Virus record (IMG/VR): IMGVR_UViG_3300042402_001424
Location: 1 to 55,080 of that record
DNA from: a virus
Reading direction: 5' to 3' (one strand)
DNA length: 55,080 bases
The notes beneath the pieces are model-generated. The model did no database searches. It worked only from the letters and a program-made list of their open reading frames with translations, and had not been told where the DNA came from. The position numbers and the translations under genes are program-made. Positions 127 to 46,414 of this stretch are shown here, in pieces; the stretch's first letter is position 1; every line of letters starts with the position of its first letter.

Positions 127-1533
127 TTACTTAACTAAAGCAACCTTAGCCTTTGGATTCTTCTTGTTCCACTGAGTGGCCAACTTGTTAAATGCAGCCT
201 TCATGGACTTAATCGCTGCAGCATTATCTGCAGTCAACTTAGCAATCTGTGCATCCTTAGCAAGAAGAGCAGCATCTGATGCAGTCTTTGCATCAGCAAG
301 TGCCTTTGCACCTGCTGCCTTCTCTGTTGCTACAGCATCTGCAACTGCCTTATCTGAAGCAGCCTTTGCATCTGCAATTGCCTTATCTGATGTAGCCTTT
401 AGATCAGCAAGTGCCTTGGCATGTGAAGCCTTTAGTTCTGCAAGTTCTGCAGTAACTATTGCAAGTGAAGCATTAGCTGCTTCCAACTCCAACTTGAACT
501 GTGCGATAATCTTATCTGCAGCAACGCCTGCTTCTGCAAGTGCCTTTAGAGCGCTTGCTTCTGCCTTCTTTGCATCAGTTGCTTCTGCTGCTGCCTTTAG
601 TAGTTCAGCATTAGCCTTTGCTAGGCTTGCTGCTAGGTCTGACTTAGCCTTAACTTCTGCTTCAAGCTGAGCCTTTGTAGATGCATGTGCAGCCTTTTCA
701 GCAGCAAGTGCAGCCTTCTCAGCAGCAAGCTCTGAAACTAGATCACGAACTGCAATTTCTGCAAATGGTGAAAGTGTACGAGCAGGAAGTCCAACTACGT
801 CTGCAGATGTTGCATCAGAAGATGTTGTTGGAGCAAATGTAATAAGTGATCGTGTTCCAGTTGCTGGTAGTGTTGCAGTAAACTTTGCAACTCCAAAATC
901 TGAAAGTGTTGCACCAGTTGTTACTGTTGCTGTATCTAGTGTTGCTGATGCAGCAAAGACTGCTGCTGTAATTGACTTACCAGATACCTTGTTACCAAAT
1001 GCATCTGTTGCTGTAACTAGAATATCATGCTTTGTACCAGCAGCTCCTGCTGATGGAGCAGATACTGTTAGGTTGTTGATCTTTCCAGCAGTTCCCTGTA
1101 CATAGTATGTAAGAGTTGTTCCACCGTTGTTGATTACAACTGTACCAATTGCTGTTGTCTTTGTGTAGACAAAAAATGTTGCAGTATTTCCAGTACCTGT
1201 TGCAATTGTCAAAGATGATGATCCTGACGATGCTCCTACTGGTGCTGCTGATGTGTGTAGTGCAGACACGATTGTTGCGTTAGTTGCTGAAGCAGTAACT
1301 GATGTTCCTGTTGCAACTGTTGCTACAAAGCGCAACGCATCTGCTGCATCAATTGTGTTGTCCTCTGGGACTGGCAATGAAGCAGGTGTAGCAATTACAC
1401 CATTAGTTGTATTTGCTACAGAGTTTAGCGTTACTGCAACAGTCATTACCGTTGCATTCGCAGGTGCTGCTGCGACAGTTCCCAAAGTCATGGCTGCAGC
1501 CACGGCAAGGGCGATCTTCTTAAATGAATTCAT
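127..1533 (-). CDS. Secreted surface-like protein: signal peptide, Ig-like region, long coiled coil
   Basis: The 468-residue product starts with a clear Sec signal peptide: K5-K6, a hydrophobic core at about 7-23, and probable cleavage after A-N-A at residue 27. Residues 30-260 are rich in Ser, Thr, Ala and Val and look like bacterial Ig-like beta domains (for example the stretch around 168-195). Residues about 262-447 form an Ala/Lys/Glu coiled coil, ending in a basic tail of about 21 residues. The start is set by AAGGAG five bases before ATG. It lies 11 bases after the terminase stop and is the last gene before a terminator. This plan resembles surface proteins of actinobacterial hosts more than a virion protein, which suggests acquisition from a host. 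No enzymatic motif is seen. It could act in the envelope of the infected cell or be a virion decoration. Confidence 0.8.
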   Translation of the reverse strand: MNSFKKIALAVAAAMTLGTVAAAPANATVMTVAVTLNSVANTTNGVIATPASLPVPEDNTIDAADALRFVATVATGTSVTASATNATIVSALHTSAAPVGASSGSSSLTIATGTGNTATFFVYTKTTAIGTVVINNGGTTLTYYVQGTAGKINNLTVSAPSAGAAGTKHDILVTATDAFGNKVSGKSITAAVFAASATLDTATVTTGATLSDFGVAKFTATLPATGTRSLITFAPTTSSDATSADVVGLPARTLSPFAEIAVRDLVSELAAEKAALAAEKAAHASTKAQLEAEVKAKSDLAASLAKANAELLKAAAEATDAKKAEASALKALAEAGVAADKIIAQFKLELEAANASLAIVTAELAELKASHAKALADLKATSDKAIADAKAASDKAVADAVATEKAAGAKALADAKTASDAALLAKDAQIAKLTADNAAAIKSMKAAFNKLATQWNKKNPKAKVALVK

Positions 1534-1544
1534 TTTTCTCCTTG

Positions 1545-3320
1545 TTATATTAGTTTTAGGTTATCAAGAAAACTCTTGACATCTTCAGGCATTTGCCTGT
1601 CTTCCAATTCTACCATAGCTCTCTGCTGTCTTGCAACTTTATCCGCAGATCCCCAGGTATGAATCTCTATCTCAATATTCATTTCCTTTGGGGTATGAGA
1701 AATGGCACCAAATACTGCCCCACAAACAGCATCTGCCAAGTCCTTAGACTTCTTTCTAGGGTGATCTACACGATTACCCTTCATGATCTTAAGCTCTGAC
1801 ATTTCTTCCAGAAGCAAGGGAATCATGGGCATAGCAATACGCTCTTCATAGACCATCATTGCTAAATCTTCGTAGTGTTTTTTGGCAACAGAAACAGTAT
1901 CAGTTCTTATTCCTACCTGCTTTAGCTCTTGCTGAATATCATATGACTGCCAACGGTCAAATGAAACAATACCAATATTAAAACCTTGTCTGCGTAGATT
2001 AATAATCCATTGTTTTACTTCAGATAGATTAACGGGTCCTTCTGCTTTTGGTTCCCACCATGCTACTGCATCTACTACAACTATGGGCGCTACCTGTTCA
2101 TAATCTTTAATTACCTGGATATTTACCCATTTATCTACGTGAGCAATAGCAACTGCACACTTATCGTGCTTCTGTGCAAGGTCAGCGTGAATGTAATATT
2201 GCTTGTCTGAGTCTGGCTTAAAGTTTTCTGCAAACCTTCTAAAACTATCCACAGGATTTGTTAAAGTCATACAGTTAATAAGTTTATCCTTTTGCTTAAA
2301 GAAAGCATCTGATGCGTAGGTTGGTGTACACAAAAAGCGCATCATTGCATCTCCTAAGTCTGTTAGGAATGCTATCTTAAAGTCATCAATCTGTCTAGTA
2401 GGATTTACATCCCATGTTGGTCTTTTTAATGCTAAGACTTTTGGAATCTTATAAGAAAGAATATGATCTTCCTCCCATGAAATTTCAAAGAAGTTGTCTG
2501 GGTTATCTTCTGGTAAGTCTTCGTTAATAATAAATCTGTGTGTTTTATCTATAATTTCTTTTTCAGCAACTACAGCATCATATCTCTGAGAAATAAAGTC
2601 TCCTGGGTATCTTGGAAAAGAAAGTAAAACTACCTTACCAAGATCAGGAAAACGAGAATCTACAGTTCCACGAAAAGCTTTATAGATGTTGTCAGCAGTC
2701 TTTCCTTGCTCGTTTCCTGTCGCTACCTCTGATGCAAAGCCAGAAATCTCGTCAAGTACAGCCATAAACAAGTTCAAACCCTCATGTGATTCACGCTCTG
2801 AGTGACCAGAATAAACTGTGATTGATTTATCAAACTCAATAGAGTCTGCTTTAGGATTATACTTTCCTGCAAACCATGGTGATCTTTCAATCTTTGACTT
2901 AAAGCCTTTAAAGAAAACATTCTTTGCTTGTTGAGCGTTAATAGCAACGTTAATAATATCAATAGCATCTCCTGCAGGCTTACCATAATAAACAGCAGGC
3001 TCTTTTAAGCATAGCATTTTATATACTACATATGCACATGCTACTGTTGATACGAAGTCTTTTCCAGATCCCTTGCCAAGTTGGAGAATAATTTCATTCT
3101 TTGTATATTTTTTAAAGTATGCTTCACCATCTTCACCACGAATATCTATGACATCTTCTTTACGATATATCTGGCTCATGGCTTCAACAATGTCATATTG
3201 GATATCAGAAAGTGGTGGTTGACCAAGATAATCTGGAGATTCAACAAATGTTTTTGCATCAACTGGCTTCTCAATAAAATGATTTTCTTTAAGAACTTCT
3301 AAAAATTCATCAAATATCAT
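1545..3320 (-). CDS. terL: Terminase large subunit
   Basis: This is the DNA-packaging motor: an ATPase that pumps DNA into the prohead and a nuclease that cuts concatemers. Counting from the ATG at 3320 (591 residues), residues 82-88 are a Walker A-like GKGSGKD in which Asp replaces the usual Ser/Thr, and residues 189-191 give a Walker B L-D-E. The RNase H-like nuclease acids are D380 (in A-D-L-A-Q), D455 (in S-F-D-R) and D530 (in K-D-L-A-D-A-V). The ATG overlaps the oxygenase stop as ATGA, which indicates translational coupling. A TTG two codons upstream is a less likely start. The portal and capsid genes are about 39 kb away in this window. Confidence 0.95.
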   Translation of the reverse strand: MIFDEFLEVLKENHFIEKPVDAKTFVESPDYLGQPPLSDIQYDIVEAMSQIYRKEDVIDIRGEDGEAYFKKYTKNEIILQLGKGSGKDFVSTVACAYVVYKMLCLKEPAVYYGKPAGDAIDIINVAINAQQAKNVFFKGFKSKIERSPWFAGKYNPKADSIEFDKSITVYSGHSERESHEGLNLFMAVLDEISGFASEVATGNEQGKTADNIYKAFRGTVDSRFPDLGKVVLLSFPRYPGDFISQRYDAVVAEKEIIDKTHRFIINEDLPEDNPDNFFEISWEEDHILSYKIPKVLALKRPTWDVNPTRQIDDFKIAFLTDLGDAMMRFLCTPTYASDAFFKQKDKLINCMTLTNPVDSFRRFAENFKPDSDKQYYIHADLAQKHDKCAVAIAHVDKWVNIQVIKDYEQVAPIVVVDAVAWWEPKAEGPVNLSEVKQWIINLRRQGFNIGIVSFDRWQSYDIQQELKQVGIRTDTVSVAKKHYEDLAMMVYEERIAMPMIPLLLEEMSELKIMKGNRVDHPRKKSKDLADAVCGAVFGAISHTPKEMNIEIEIHTWGSADKVARQQRAMVELEDRQMPEDVKSFLDNLKLI

Positions 3321-3844
3321 GACCAAAACCCTACTATTACATACTTAGTTCCAGAAATTACTGGCTCTGCTGAATGAGAGAAGTTGCTTGATGATGGAAA
3401 AACAACCAACATGTTTTTTGTTGGTTTGATAGAGATATTCAATTGTGAAAAAACTATTTCACCACCTAAATAATCTTCGTTTAAATATAACAAAGCTGAA
3501 ATTTTTCTTGGAAACTCTTCTGTGCTGTCTGTATGCTCAATAAAAAACTGTCCTTCTGTGTATTTAACCAGCTGATACTCACTAGAAAAAAAAGATATTT
3601 TGTTTTTTTTAGCATATTCATAAACAATTGGTTCAATTTTTTCAAATAAAATTTTTTGAATATCTTTAGAAATTTTAGTGGCAGAACAATTTCTTATGTC
3701 TGTATTTTTTACATTTGGTAAATGCTTATATCTTGAGTGAGCAGCTTGTGACTCTAGCCAAACATAGTTTGGATAAGACTTAACTATATCCTCTAAATCA
3801 ATGTCATCTATAGTTTCAACTAGAAACAAATCTTTGTCATTCAT
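3317..3844 (-). CDS. 2OG-Fe(II) oxygenase (prolyl 4-hydroxylase-like)
   Basis: The 175-residue product has the iron and 2-oxoglutarate signature of the P4H-like dioxygenases. H104-x-D106 (in E-H-T-D-S) and H157 (in F-S-H-S-A-E-P-V) would bind Fe(II), and K167 in G-T-K-Y would contact 2-oxoglutarate. The strands L-L-Y-L-N and G-G-E-I-V-F lie between them, as in the family. Such enzymes hydroxylate proteins, or in some phages modify nucleobases; the substrate cannot be read here. The start is ATG 3844, which overlaps the end of the small terminase gene, and its own stop overlaps the large terminase start. It is therefore locked between two packaging genes. Confidence 0.88.
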   Translation of the reverse strand: MNDKDLFLVETIDDIDLEDIVKSYPNYVWLESQAAHSRYKHLPNVKNTDIRNCSATKISKDIQKILFEKIEPIVYEYAKKNKISFFSSEYQLVKYTEGQFFIEHTDSTEEFPRKISALLYLNEDYLGGEIVFSQLNISIKPTKNMLVVFPSSSNFSHSAEPVISGTKYVIVGFWS

Positions 3845-4379
3845 TAACAACCTCTGATACTATTGTCAACACCTGTCCTTCTTTAGCAATAGTAGACAGT
3901 CTTTGCATAATAATATCTCTAACCTCTGGATGAGAAGAAGCAAGGTCTCTAAGTATTCCAACTAACACCTCTTGACGACGCTCAATCTCAACCATCTCTT
4001 CTGCAAGTTCTTTATTCTCAAGAAGTCCAGCTTTTTGAAGCATATCAATTCTTTTAGACTCAATATCCATTACAAGTTTAATTGCTGCAGTCTTTGCACT
4101 AAGGTTGTTTGTCATTGATGCTTCATCAATAACCTCATATGACTTTAGTATAAGCTTACTGTAGTGTGCATCTGCTCCAGCTAGTGCATCCTTAGCACGG
4201 GCACGGATTGCTGTATTATTAGATGTTTTTTCTTTCCATTCATCAATATATGCAACTACTCGTGTTCTAGGGATTGACAACTCTTTAGATATGGTGGTTG
4301 GATCACTACCCTTTAGATATTCGCCAACAACATCATTCATGATATCAAGATGCTTAACAAGATCTTCTTCAGTTGACAT
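3837..4379 (-). CDS. Probable terminase small subunit
   Basis: This 180-residue, mostly helical protein lies just upstream of the oxygenase and large terminase. Residues about 27-49 look like a helix-turn-helix (D-P-T-T-I-S-K-E-L then I-P-R-T-R-V-V-A-Y-I), followed by long charged helices that could oligomerise. This plan and position fit a small terminase subunit that recognises phage DNA and loads the large subunit. There is no diagnostic catalytic motif, so the call rests on architecture and context. The ATG overlaps the DUF3310 gene end, with AAGG upstream. Confidence 0.65.
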   Translation of the reverse strand: MSTEEDLVKHLDIMNDVVGEYLKGSDPTTISKELSIPRTRVVAYIDEWKEKTSNNTAIRARAKDALAGADAHYSKLILKSYEVIDEASMTNNLSAKTAAIKLVMDIESKRIDMLQKAGLLENKELAEEMVEIERRQEVLVGILRDLASSHPEVRDIIMQRLSTIAKEGQVLTIVSEVVNE

Positions 4380-8323: not shown

Positions 8324-8640
8324 CAGAATCTTACCCCATGCTTCTTTGGTCTATCAGAGTTCTTGTCCATCTTTTGTTTGATTGCAGAGTCTAAAGATTT
8401 TGTCATATACCCTGCCTTTACCATACCTGCATACAAGTCTAAGGTGCGAATGATAATATCTGCAAACTCATCTGACATTTGGTCTGGGTCCATTTCTTTT
8501 CTCAATGCTTCCATTGCCTCAACAACCTCAGAGACTATCATCATCATTTGTTTTGTTACAAAGATCTCATCTGCTGGGCGATCCCAAAATCCTTTTGCTA
8601 CTGCATTTGCGTGAATTTGTTCTGCTAGATTATCAAACAC
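8323..8640 (-). CDS. MazG-like nucleotide pyrophosphohydrolase
   Basis: The 105-residue helical product shows the acidic pattern of the MazG/dUTPase-type all-alpha NTP pyrophosphatases: S-E-V-V-E-A-M-E-A-L near residue 37, then D-E-F-A-D-I-I-I-R at about 57-65. These acids would hold magnesium. Family members hydrolyse NTPs or dNTPs to monophosphates, and phage versions may adjust nucleotide pools or alarmones; the substrate here is unknown. The GTG start is supported by GAGGTAGAAA upstream and overlaps the polymerase stop by eight bases. Confidence 0.75.
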   Translation of the reverse strand: MFDNLAEQIHANAVAKGFWDRPADEIFVTKQMMMIVSEVVEAMEALRKEMDPDQMSDEFADIIIRTLDLYAGMVKAGYMTKSLDSAIKQKMDKNSDRPKKHGVRF

Positions 8641-11600
8641 TTTCTACCTCATTCATTGTAATTGTTCCATCCTTTGTTTTTCCAAAATCAAACTTATATA
8701 CGCTTCCTTCTTCAATCTTCATGTAAGCTTTTGCAAACTGCATTGGGAATACAACTATTGAGTGCATCTCTCTTCCTGCATCAGCAACTACTAAAGATGC
8801 CATCTTCTTTCCAGCCTTTGTTACTCTTGGTTTAAATGAAACTACAAAGTGCTCACCCTCTTTATATGGCAACATCTTATAGTTTAAAAACTTTACCAAG
8901 GAACTCTTAGATCCTTTTATCTCGTCAGCAGGTACTGCAGATACAATCCTATTGTCACTTGCAAGAATAAGATAAGTGCGACCAGTCTCAATAGACGTAG
9001 ACTCTTCATCAAATATACCAACACTGCCAGTCTTGTCCAAAACTTCAACTCTTGACCATCCTGTTCCTCGTTTAATTGATTTTACCATACCTAATATTAC
9101 AAATGATCCAGTCTCTTCGTACTCTTCAACATCATTAATGTAAGCATAATAATGTTGTGGAATAGATGTGTTGAACTCAGGAAGGTTAAGGTACTCGTAA
9201 AGATTCTCTTTTACTTCCTGCGGATTAGCTGGATTATCTGGAAATGTAAGTGCTCCTACACATCTCATTGCCTGTAGTGCACGGCTATTTACTCCGTTAC
9301 CTTTTGTAAATGTAAACTCTTCAACATCCTTATATGATGCAAATGGACGACCTGCAATATATCTTTCAGCTATCTTGTCAGATATATACTTGATGCCAGT
9401 CAATCCAAACCTAATACCCTTGCCCTCAATTTTAAAATCAATATCTGAATCGTTAAGGTGAGGAAGCTTAATAGGGATACCCATACGCTTTGCCTCAATT
9501 AGGTATTCAGTTCTTCCGTCCTTGTCTTTTTCGTTCTTAAGCAACGCAAACATAAACTCAAGAGGATAATGATACTTTAACCATGCTGTCCAGTAAGATA
9601 GTGTTGAGTATGCTACTGCGTGAGACTTATTAAATGAGTACCCTGCGTGAGCCTCAAAGTCATGCCATAGATCTAACGCATCATTTGGCGAAAGGTATTG
9701 CGAAGCACCCTTAACAAATTGATCTTTAAAAACATCAAACTCTTTAGCATCTTTTTTCTTTCCAATGATCTTTCTAACTTTATCTGCTTCCGACATGGAC
9801 ATACCGCCAAGCTGTACGCATGCTTGCATAACTTGTTCCTGGTAAAGAATACAGCCATAAGTTTCCTCCGTAAATGATTTCATAACTTGGTGCTTATAAT
9901 CAATGTTCTCACGACCATGTTTACGAGCAATATAAGACTTACCAATAGTATTCATAGCACCAGGACGAACTAAAGCATTTGATGCTGCAAGTTCAGCAAG
10001 GTTCTTTACACGCATCTTAACTAGAAGGTTTGTGTATGGTGCTGCTTCACACTGAAACACGCCCTTAGTGTATCCGTCAGAGAGCATGTTATAAACGTTT
10101 GCATCATCCATATCAATCTTTAATAAATCAATCTTTGTTCCTTCACGCTCTTTGATAATATCAATACAGTCTTTAAGTACGCTTAAGGTCTTTAGACCAA
10201 GAGCATCAATCTTAATCAAACCAATGTTTTCTGCTTCACCCATATCAACTGCCACTACTGGGATTCTTTCATCTTGCCCAGTTACTGATCTTGTTTCTAA
10301 TGGTGCGTACCTAAATATTGGATCTTTACTTGTTACAACTCCTGCTGCGTGAATTCCAGTACCACGAATTCTGCCACGAAGCTGGTCTCCGTAACGCTCC
10401 ACTTCTGGATACTTTTCTCTAAACCAGTAGGTATTCTTTGATGTGCAGAAGTCATCCCATGTATCAACAACCTTAAGTACCTTATTAACATCTGGCAAAG
10501 GAATGTTTAAGCATCTTGCAACGTCTCTTACAACACCTTTGTCTTTAAACTGTAAGAATGTAGCAATAGATGCAACGTGTCTGTATTGTCTAACCAGGTA
10601 ATCTTTTACTTCGTCACGACGAGTATCTTGAATATCTGAATCAATGTCAGGAAAGTCGTTACGGTCTGGATTAATAAAACGGAAGAAAAGAAGTCCATGC
10701 TTTATTGGGTCAATGTCTGTGATACCAAGAGCATAGCATAGTAGTGAACCTGCTGCAGAACCACGACCAGGACCAACCATAATCCCTTCACTCTTTGCCC
10801 AGTTAAGCATGTTACGAACAACTAGAAAGTATGGACCAAAGTTTTTCTCACCAATAATTTCTAACTCTTCATCAAGACGTGTAAGGTATTCTTCGTTCTT
10901 GTCCAACTTTCTTTCCTTAAGACCTTCAAGTGCAAGCTTCTTAAGCTCGTCCATAGGCTTCTTATACTGCACTGGAAGAAGATCTAAATGTTCTTTAATA
11001 TCGTATCCTTCAACCTTATCAGCAATCTCATTGGTTGACACAAACATATCTTCACGATCAATGCCCTGCTTAAGCATTGCATCCTTCATCTCATCATATG
11101 AAAGAAGATGGATATCAAATTTATTAAAACTCATCATGCGATCAGCACCATAAAGGTAGTCAAGACGATCCATGAATGAATCATGCTTCTTTGACTTATC
11201 GTAAGTTACATCCTTCTGCAATTTAGCATGAGTATTAAGAAGAAGCATTAGCTCTTGAACTTCTTTTTGACTTGTGTCAGAGTGATGACAGTCTGGTGTT
11301 ACAACAATCTTTACCTTTGCTGCATCAGCAAGTTCAATAATTCCTTTATTAACTTCTGGTGGGTTGTGTGGCATTACCTCAATGTAGTAATCATCACCAA
11401 ATTCTTTTTTAAACCACTGTATGTGTTTCTTTGCTGTTGCAAGCTCACCTAACTCAACAGCTTTTGCTATCCAACCACTAAGACATGCAGAGGTTACGAT
11501 AATGCCTTCTTTATACTTTGCCAATGTTTCAAAATCAAATCTTGGCTTACTAAAGAAACCATCTGTCCATGCAATTTCATTAATCTTGTTAAGGTTTTCC

Positions 11601-11908
11601 AAACCTTGTTGGTTCTTAGCGAGAAGGACTATATGATGATAGTTTTGGTCAAGAGGGTCAAGGCGGTCTGCCTTTGCTCTCTTATCTGCCATACTTGTCG
11701 TCATATAGCCTTCTACACCAAGTATTGGCTTAATTCCATTTGCTTTTGCAATACGGTGCAGTTCCCTATGCCCAGATAAAGTACCGTGGTCAGTGATAGC
11801 AATTGCTTGCATCCCTAACTCAACTGCACGGTTCACGTATTCTTCTGGAGTAGCAACACCATCCATTAAGGAGTAGTGTGTATGGACATGTAAGCCAACG
11901 TAGTTCAT
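8633..11908 (-). CDS. dnaE: DNA polymerase III alpha subunit (C-family, DnaE-like)
   Basis: This 1,091-residue replicative polymerase has an N-terminal PHP domain (H7-V-H-T-H-Y-S, then D40-H-G). The palm has G-P-G-R-G-S at about 379-384 and the catalytic P-D-I-D-S-D at 420-425 (D421, D423). The third acid is D568 in I-K-I-D-A-L-G-L. Finger and helix-hairpin-helix regions follow, then an OB fold near the C-terminus (F-V-I-L-G-M-V onward). The C-terminal clamp-loader-binding part of cellular DnaE is not obvious. The start is ATG 11908, three bases after the SSB-like gene's stop, without a strong ribosome binding site. It extends primers laid down by the nearby primase and helicase. Confidence 0.96.
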   Translation of the reverse strand: MNYVGLHVHTHYSLMDGVATPEEYVNRAVELGMQAIAITDHGTLSGHRELHRIAKANGIKPILGVEGYMTTSMADKRAKADRLDPLDQNYHHIVLLAKNQQGLENLNKINEIAWTDGFFSKPRFDFETLAKYKEGIIVTSACLSGWIAKAVELGELATAKKHIQWFKKEFGDDYYIEVMPHNPPEVNKGIIELADAAKVKIVVTPDCHHSDTSQKEVQELMLLLNTHAKLQKDVTYDKSKKHDSFMDRLDYLYGADRMMSFNKFDIHLLSYDEMKDAMLKQGIDREDMFVSTNEIADKVEGYDIKEHLDLLPVQYKKPMDELKKLALEGLKERKLDKNEEYLTRLDEELEIIGEKNFGPYFLVVRNMLNWAKSEGIMVGPGRGSAAGSLLCYALGITDIDPIKHGLLFFRFINPDRNDFPDIDSDIQDTRRDEVKDYLVRQYRHVASIATFLQFKDKGVVRDVARCLNIPLPDVNKVLKVVDTWDDFCTSKNTYWFREKYPEVERYGDQLRGRIRGTGIHAAGVVTSKDPIFRYAPLETRSVTGQDERIPVVAVDMGEAENIGLIKIDALGLKTLSVLKDCIDIIKEREGTKIDLLKIDMDDANVYNMLSDGYTKGVFQCEAAPYTNLLVKMRVKNLAELAASNALVRPGAMNTIGKSYIARKHGRENIDYKHQVMKSFTEETYGCILYQEQVMQACVQLGGMSMSEADKVRKIIGKKKDAKEFDVFKDQFVKGASQYLSPNDALDLWHDFEAHAGYSFNKSHAVAYSTLSYWTAWLKYHYPLEFMFALLKNEKDKDGRTEYLIEAKRMGIPIKLPHLNDSDIDFKIEGKGIRFGLTGIKYISDKIAERYIAGRPFASYKDVEEFTFTKGNGVNSRALQAMRCVGALTFPDNPANPQEVKENLYEYLNLPEFNTSIPQHYYAYINDVEEYEETGSFVILGMVKSIKRGTGWSRVEVLDKTGSVGIFDEESTSIETGRTYLILASDNRIVSAVPADEIKGSKSSLVKFLNYKMLPYKEGEHFVVSFKPRVTKAGKKMASLVVADAGREMHSIVVFPMQFAKAYMKIEEGSVYKFDFGKTKDGTITMNEVESV

Positions 11909-35808: not shown

Positions 35809-36447
35809 TTATGATACTGGTACGAAGGTACGATCTACGATCTTACCGTATGAGCCAGAACCATCTTCTGGTAGTAGACGGAATGAAACTTCAAACATTG
35901 AAGCCTCGTCACGCTTTGCAGATACTGTTACATTCTCAATTGAGAGTGCACGGTATGCGGTGTATACACGCTCTACTGTAGTAGAGTTAGCACAGTCACC
36001 TGTTCCTGGACCAATTGCAACAATTCCTCGTTCAACTGGGCACTCACCGATTTGTCCAGCGGACAAGTTAAGAGAGCGTCCGTTTGAAGTTGACTTTGTA
36101 CCTGTAAGCTGTTCGTCTCTGCCTGCTAAAGCAAGTAGAAGATTTTCTAGTGTTGCTTCTGCAAATGCTGTTGCAAGATTAACCTGCATTCCTTGCTTGT
36201 AAAGCTTTGCTACGTCAAGAAATTGATCAACCTGAACTTCACCGAAGTCTGGTTGGAACTGTATTTCAAGACCGTTCATTGTAAAACCAACATTATTGTA
36301 TGTTGAATCGTTTTCCAATGTATCTTTAAAAGACTTTGCTGAATCAAAAGCCTCCAGCGTTGACGGAGTCAAAGTTGTGTCTGCAACAAAAAGTGCTGCT
36401 GCGCCAACGATAATGTTAGACGAAGTTCCACGATTATAGTTTGCCAT
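35809..36447 (-). CDS. Major tail protein (tail tube subunit)
   Basis: The 212-residue, beta-rich protein (T-R-K type strands such as V-S-A-K-R-D-E-A and a final Y-G-K-I-V-D-R-T-F-V-P-V-S) lies between the neck genes and the tail chaperones and tape measure, the standard place for the tube subunit. It has its own promoter (36511-36519) and its own terminator (35750-35786), as expected for a protein made in many copies. ATG follows AGAGGTGAAATAA. The leader is about 57 bases long. Confidence 0.8.
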   Translation of the reverse strand: MANYNRGTSSNIIVGAAALFVADTTLTPSTLEAFDSAKSFKDTLENDSTYNNVGFTMNGLEIQFQPDFGEVQVDQFLDVAKLYKQGMQVNLATAFAEATLENLLLALAGRDEQLTGTKSTSNGRSLNLSAGQIGECPVERGIVAIGPGTGDCANSTTVERVYTAYRALSIENVTVSAKRDEASMFEVSFRLLPEDGSGSYGKIVDRTFVPVS

Positions 36448-46405: not shown

Positions 46406-46414
46406 TGCTATACT
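46406..46414 (+). promoter_or_regulatory. Plus-strand extended -10-like box TGCTATACT
   Basis: The plus strand reads TGCTATACT, overlapping the fibre stop codon, directly after the plus-strand hairpin. It would transcribe antisense into the 3' end of the fibre gene. No plus-strand gene is evident downstream, so it may be fortuitous. Confidence 0.35.

Follow-up and report, generated by a model that had tools for sequence, protein, structure and literature searches.

The window (the whole 55,080-nucleotide stretch of viral DNA analyzed here, IMG/VR record IMGVR_UViG_3300042402_001424) carries, on the minus strand at positions 127–1533, an intact, ATG-initiated open reading frame for a 468-residue putative surface protein, a secreted S-layer-like homologue with known relatives and the version that we call type 1. 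Its N terminus, MNSFKKIALAVAAAMTLGTVAAAPANA, has the basic, hydrophobic, and A-x-A portions of a Sec-type signal peptide (residues 1–28; positions 1450–1533, minus strand) and aligns with the signal of a host protein discussed below (FKKIAL in the phage, FKRIAL in the host). A simple heuristic scan of the 50 non-overlapping ORFs in the window identifies no other convincing Sec signal; one more ORF, at 35809, was flagged but lacks a proper basic start. An AlphaFold2 model (mean pLDDT 78) places two Ig-like beta domains after the signal (approximately residues 31–158, positions 1060–1443, and residues 159–263, positions 745–1059, both minus strand), followed by a long Ala/Lys-rich helix, or stalk (residues 265–458; positions 160–741, minus strand). 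The protein ends in a basic tail, NKKNPKAKVALVK (positions 130–168, minus strand), that is common to some type-2 phage proteins. The sequence, the signal scan, and the model therefore bear out the Sec signal, Ig-like region, Ala/Lys helix, and basic tail assigned in the preliminary description. A Foldseek search with the model, in which the first Ig-like domain was also recognized, returns as nearest solved folds tandem Ig-like domains from invasin, from intimin, and from two S-layer proteins, SbsC and SbsB, while a sequence search of solved structures gave nothing meaningful. It should be noted that the fold does not discriminate between kinds of protein: Ig-like domains are shared by S-layer proteins (SbsC, SbsB, and Sap among the matches) and many phage virion proteins.

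Directly upstream lies the gene for the terminase large subunit (terL; positions 1545–3326, minus strand), recognized by PHROG hits and 53% identical to the terminase of Streptomyces phage Karimac. The start codon of the surface gene is 11 nt past the terL stop, with a Shine-Dalgarno sequence, AAGGAG (positions 1538–1543, minus strand), between the two, and its stop codon is followed by an intrinsic-terminator-like hairpin with a 9-pair GC-rich stem and a T-tract (positions 109–88, minus strand), the best terminator-like site within the first 9 kb of the window. The gene had been described as the end of a packaging operon: its terminal position agrees with the hairpin, but the unit consists mostly of replication and recombination genes plus the terminase, the genes before the surface gene being DnaB-like helicase, primase, SSB, DNA polymerase III alpha, UvsX, Cas4 exonuclease, RuvC, and terminase. 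The polymerase gene (positions 8633–11908) encodes a phage-borne, bacterial-type alpha subunit with a PHP domain. A small gene at positions 3317–3850, with PHROG hits annotated as endonuclease or oxygenase, is absent or swapped for a 46%-identical version in relatives that are otherwise 97% identical, and a 1744-residue protein encoded at positions 46408–51642 matches both a family of head-decoration proteins and many families of tail fibres.

The place behind terL is a conserved slot. An ORF beginning with M[NK]S[FL][KQ] starts no more than 140 nt past the terL stop in 129 of the 130 terL relatives with readable downstream DNA, and the remaining one (L085) has the same start sequence with a GTG start codon, so that the slot is filled in 130/130. 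A terminase-only search brought in 80 loci; among the loci found by terL alone the slot ORF is present in 72 of 73, plus the GTG-initiated one. The distance from the terL stop to the start of the slot ORF is 11–49 nt, with an SD-like site ahead of the ORF in 132 of 133 relatives. Each phage genome carries one copy and one version of the surface gene, as judged from ten long contigs (58–118 kb), and in a second phage group, with a terL identity of just 56–57%, the gene is likewise single and lies several kb from terL. The nearest described phages are the Stanwilliamsviridae, for example Karimac, which have a related terminase and a similar RecA-Cas4-RuvC-terL gene order; there, however, an HNH endonuclease gene follows terL and the surface gene is absent.

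What lies beyond base 1 of the window can be seen in a contig (L003) that extends past it and matches the window end at 100% protein identity. A secreted subtilase (Pfam Peptidase_S8; L003:10060-10914) is encoded there a few kb from the surface-protein gene, and a related subtilase is found in 39 of the 49 loci with enough DNA; such an enzyme might cut back or remove the surface layer of the host. Large proteins of 739 and 639 residues (L003:6493-8712 and L036:6460-8379) are encoded directly downstream of the surface gene and have a common C terminus, EKAQEVIIPVIIVSQIAN; the one in L003 has a signal-like N terminus, and the match of these proteins to PA14 is borderline.

Relatives of the window protein are encoded on at least 495 IMG/VR stretches, which places the reality of the ORF far beyond chance. 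Profiles sort the slot ORFs into type 1 (the window), type 2, and type 3, and a pair within type 2 (L129/L149) forms a fourth distinct version, so the protein occurs across phages as at least four dissimilar versions. A tblastn search of 50,697 phage records gave no match for type 1 or for two other versions, and Pfam, PHROGs, and NCBIfam hold no family for the window protein. Known S-layer domains such as SLH were not found by Pfam or NCBIfam in the window protein, in phage types 2 and 3, or in the host proteins.

Relatives are found instead on chromosomes of Nanopelagicales (acI, lake actinobacteria; the order of Ca. Planktophila lacus), the hosts predicted from gene homology. In 296 Nanopelagicales genomes the type-1 profile finds full-length homologues in two, G146 (E = 4.5e-72) and G197 (E = 2.8e-58), with 38–42% identity over ~230 residues, the remaining matches being weak ones to the N terminus or the coil; among 346 genomes of the class the sole full-length match is again that in G197. 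(A profile scan of genome contigs with the type-1 alignment had returned no relatives at threshold, and the later genome search found the host homologues it had missed.) The tails of these two host proteins (L282 and L283) read ...LYNKLATKFKQKKIN, compared with ...WNKKNPKAKVALVK in the phage, and the type-1 tail motif (WNxKNPK) occurs in host genomes at chance level, the same as a reversed control. Because of this and because host homologues are rare, the host link is weaker for type 1 than for types 2–4. Type 2 has matches in 67 of 251 genomes, many of them full length and with E values down to 1e-116, type 3 has matches in three (G131, G069, and G056), and the fourth version, in L149, is 44% identical over 508 residues to a protein of G265. 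Contamination of genome bins as a source of these hits was considered and rejected, for type 2 because homologues are present in complete genomes (CP015605 and CP016769) and for type 1 because the genes in G146 and G197 are flanked by the same cellular genes. The likeness to surface proteins of small actinobacteria that had been noted at the outset is supported: the relatives are neither restricted to phage structural proteins nor lacking in hosts, every version having chromosomal homologues, and type 1 has no match in the phage records or in PHROGs.

The host genes related to types 2–4 occupy a characteristic locus, in which an ECF sigma factor is followed by the secreted protein and then mostly by genes for cell-surface sugars (a Wzy-like polymerase/ligase, a UDP-glucose dehydrogenase, and an epimerase); a sigma-factor match is present in 63 of 121 genomes, and an MSTK-type secreted ORF in 24 of the best 30 sigma loci. 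This sigma-linked protein (MSTKTTFKRIALV..., e.g., Ca. Planktophila lacus G001 C1:89056-90957) resembles the phage proteins in its signal pattern, secreted ectodomain, and C-terminal coil, and phage types 2–4 align with it over their full length at 32–44% identity; it differs in being chromosomal and larger (565–836 residues in the 16 that were read), and the phage surface genes, located either after terL or at another place in the phage genome, adjoin no ECF sigma-factor gene. After a constant N terminus its ectodomain is hypervariable: in several pairs, sigma proteins that are 98% identical accompany surface proteins that align at only 47–60%. The sigma factor itself (L321:5501-6868 and relatives) has a long C-terminal extension with a probable membrane segment and may regulate the adjoining surface protein. 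With the sigma-linked protein, the window protein has only the signal and the general plan in common (its N terminus alone matches in the profile search, and there is no BLAST hit), its own homologue being the separate, rare host protein. The window protein nevertheless has the FK[KR]IAL-type Sec signal, secreted ectodomain, and C-terminal helix of the variable surface family of Nanopelagicales, and homology to a chromosomal member extends beyond the signal in all versions, for type 1 via G146/G197 and for types 2–4 via the sigma-linked proteins.

Versions are repeatedly exchanged among the phages. On a terL tree with 78 rows we count ~15 version changes, where the minimum possible is 2, although the versions are still clustered relative to shuffles. 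Two phages that share 98.6% of terL (L086 and L089) carry different versions, and in other pairs 91–95% of the surface protein is shared at a terL identity of only 75–80%. Exchange also occurs within the gene: compared with the window, one type-1 relative (L017) is 73% identical in the ectodomain and 95% in the stalk, another (L030) is 90% identical in the ectodomain and its stalk measures 112 residues rather than 205, and the type-1 tail ends some type-2 phage proteins (L113, L124, and L142). The C-terminal part, 112–212 residues long among relatives, recombines separately from the ectodomain. Two type-3 phage proteins (L112:4767-4798 and L119:6067-6098) end in CVKGK..KKVT..P.CP.GYKKK, a C-terminal motif (CVKGK..KKVT) that is widespread in freshwater actinobacterial genomes and absent from the window; it may be an envelope-attachment signal. 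For the ectodomain of type 1, dN/dS has a median of 0.21, so the gene is kept by purifying selection.

The preliminary description had envisaged host-to-phage transfer and suggested a tree and a comparison of codon use. As a recent event, such a transfer is not seen in the tree, where the type-2 proteins of phages and those of hosts fall into separate groups with full support and the phage copies lie in clades of their own, nor in codon use, which is phage-like (GC3 0.226 in the surface gene compared with 0.253 ± 0.045, with alanine codons alike). Recent capture from a host was rejected on these two grounds, and together with the low dN/dS they indicate a long-kept phage gene. The two type-1 host proteins cluster together and attach beside those of phages L135, L148, and L160, a placement compatible with an old type-1 transfer in either direction.

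What, then, might the protein do? We place slightly better than even confidence in the proposal that the phage exports a mimic of the host S-layer-like protein onto the infected cell, chiefly as a protection against superinfection and re-adsorption. The protein would be made during infection as the last product encoded on the replication/terminase transcript and would be exported by the host Sec system; its helical stalk and basic tail would keep it attached to the cell envelope, such that the infected cell displays a surface protein of the phage's choosing among or instead of the host protein, which we infer forms an S-layer. The likeliest benefit would be that adsorption of competing phages is blocked; its own newly made particles would likewise be kept from adsorbing to infected cells or to debris. 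Superinfection exclusion or receptor masking, the first of the functions put forward in the preliminary description, is a candidate function that fits. By swapping versions the phages probably change the infected-cell surface, and the variability of the host protein, presumably a phage target, offers a reason why several versions are kept and swapped. More tentatively, and at somewhat less than even confidence, the locus may hold an allelic series of host surface mimics that is exchanged among phages and tracks the host gene, with which phages "serotype-convert" infected cells and which forms, with the host gene, a shared, co-evolving pool.

Other readings of the same data deserve consideration. 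That the protein decorates the virion, coating the capsid or tail and helping virions stick to the host or to particles, was also raised in the preliminary description and is suggested by the position of the gene beside terL and by the Ig-like domains so common in phage virion proteins. Proteins of that class are cytoplasmic, signal-free, and encoded in the structural block, whereas this gene lies apart from the head and tail genes, its product resembles none of the window's virion proteins (as had been noted from the start), and its host counterparts are chromosomal surface proteins. The Sec signal, conserved and shared with the host protein, would moreover remove it from the cytoplasm, where virions are assembled, and for this reason we regard decoration as unlikely. 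To the same degree we doubt that the protein is a decoy released to the medium, where it would bind the receptor-binding proteins of competitors or coat debris rather than be built into the cell surface: a Sec signal with no obvious membrane anchor or sorting motif, and homology to a presumed receptor-class protein, are what a decoy would have, but the C-terminal stalk and tail modules are kept and in types 2–4 match those of the host protein, which suggests the same attachment to the cell. Marginally less probable again is a role in maintaining or protecting the envelope, in which the protein replaces the host surface protein after host shut-off and, until the cell lyses, preserves its integrity or makes it less edible to grazing protists, without any anti-phage role; in favour of this, the gene is universal, is under purifying selection, and belongs to the family of the main variable surface protein of the host, but envelope maintenance alone does not predict that near-identical phages would repeatedly exchange versions so unlike one another. 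Finally, a captured host gene carried as cargo without function for the phage, as homology to host genes might suggest, is scarcely credible and already contradicted by the conservation of the gene in 130/130 loci and in two phage groups with only 56% terminase identity between them, at a dN/dS of ~0.2.

Exported proteins by which a phage protects the infected cell against further phages are represented by Spackle of T4 and Llp of T5. As a phage-encoded and, by prediction, exported protein the window protein is analogous to these, which are, however, small periplasmic or lipoprotein inhibitors and are not homologous to the main surface protein of the host. In the literature searched, as far as the accessible texts go, the only precedent for a phage-borne S-layer-like gene is Gene_23 of the OM43 phage Melnitz, a putative S-layer-type protein for which the authors postulated superinfection protection (PMC9004378). 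It is likewise a lytic-phage gene annotated as S-layer-type, but is a single annotated gene in a phage of Gammaproteobacteria, and a fixed slot, an allelic series, or matched host homologues are not reported in the accessible part of that paper (PMC9004378). No such surface gene is named in the available text describing the first Nanopelagicales phages to be isolated (39 kb), where Nanopelagicales microdiversity is attributed to phage pressure (PMC10202952); the words surface, S-layer, and superinfection are absent from a 2019 paper on freshwater phages (PMC6802176), and our literature search found no paper on a Nanopelagicales S-layer.

Nanopelagicales rank with the most abundant bacteria of fresh water, but little is known of their surface receptors and of how their phages counter them. 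A gene that is nearly universal in the phages and homologous to the most variable surface protein of the host provides a candidate for the receptor as well as one for an exclusion factor, and through it a link of surface variation to phage predation can be tested directly. Where CRISPR spacers are lacking, the gene may also serve as a marker for predicting which hosts lake phages infect.
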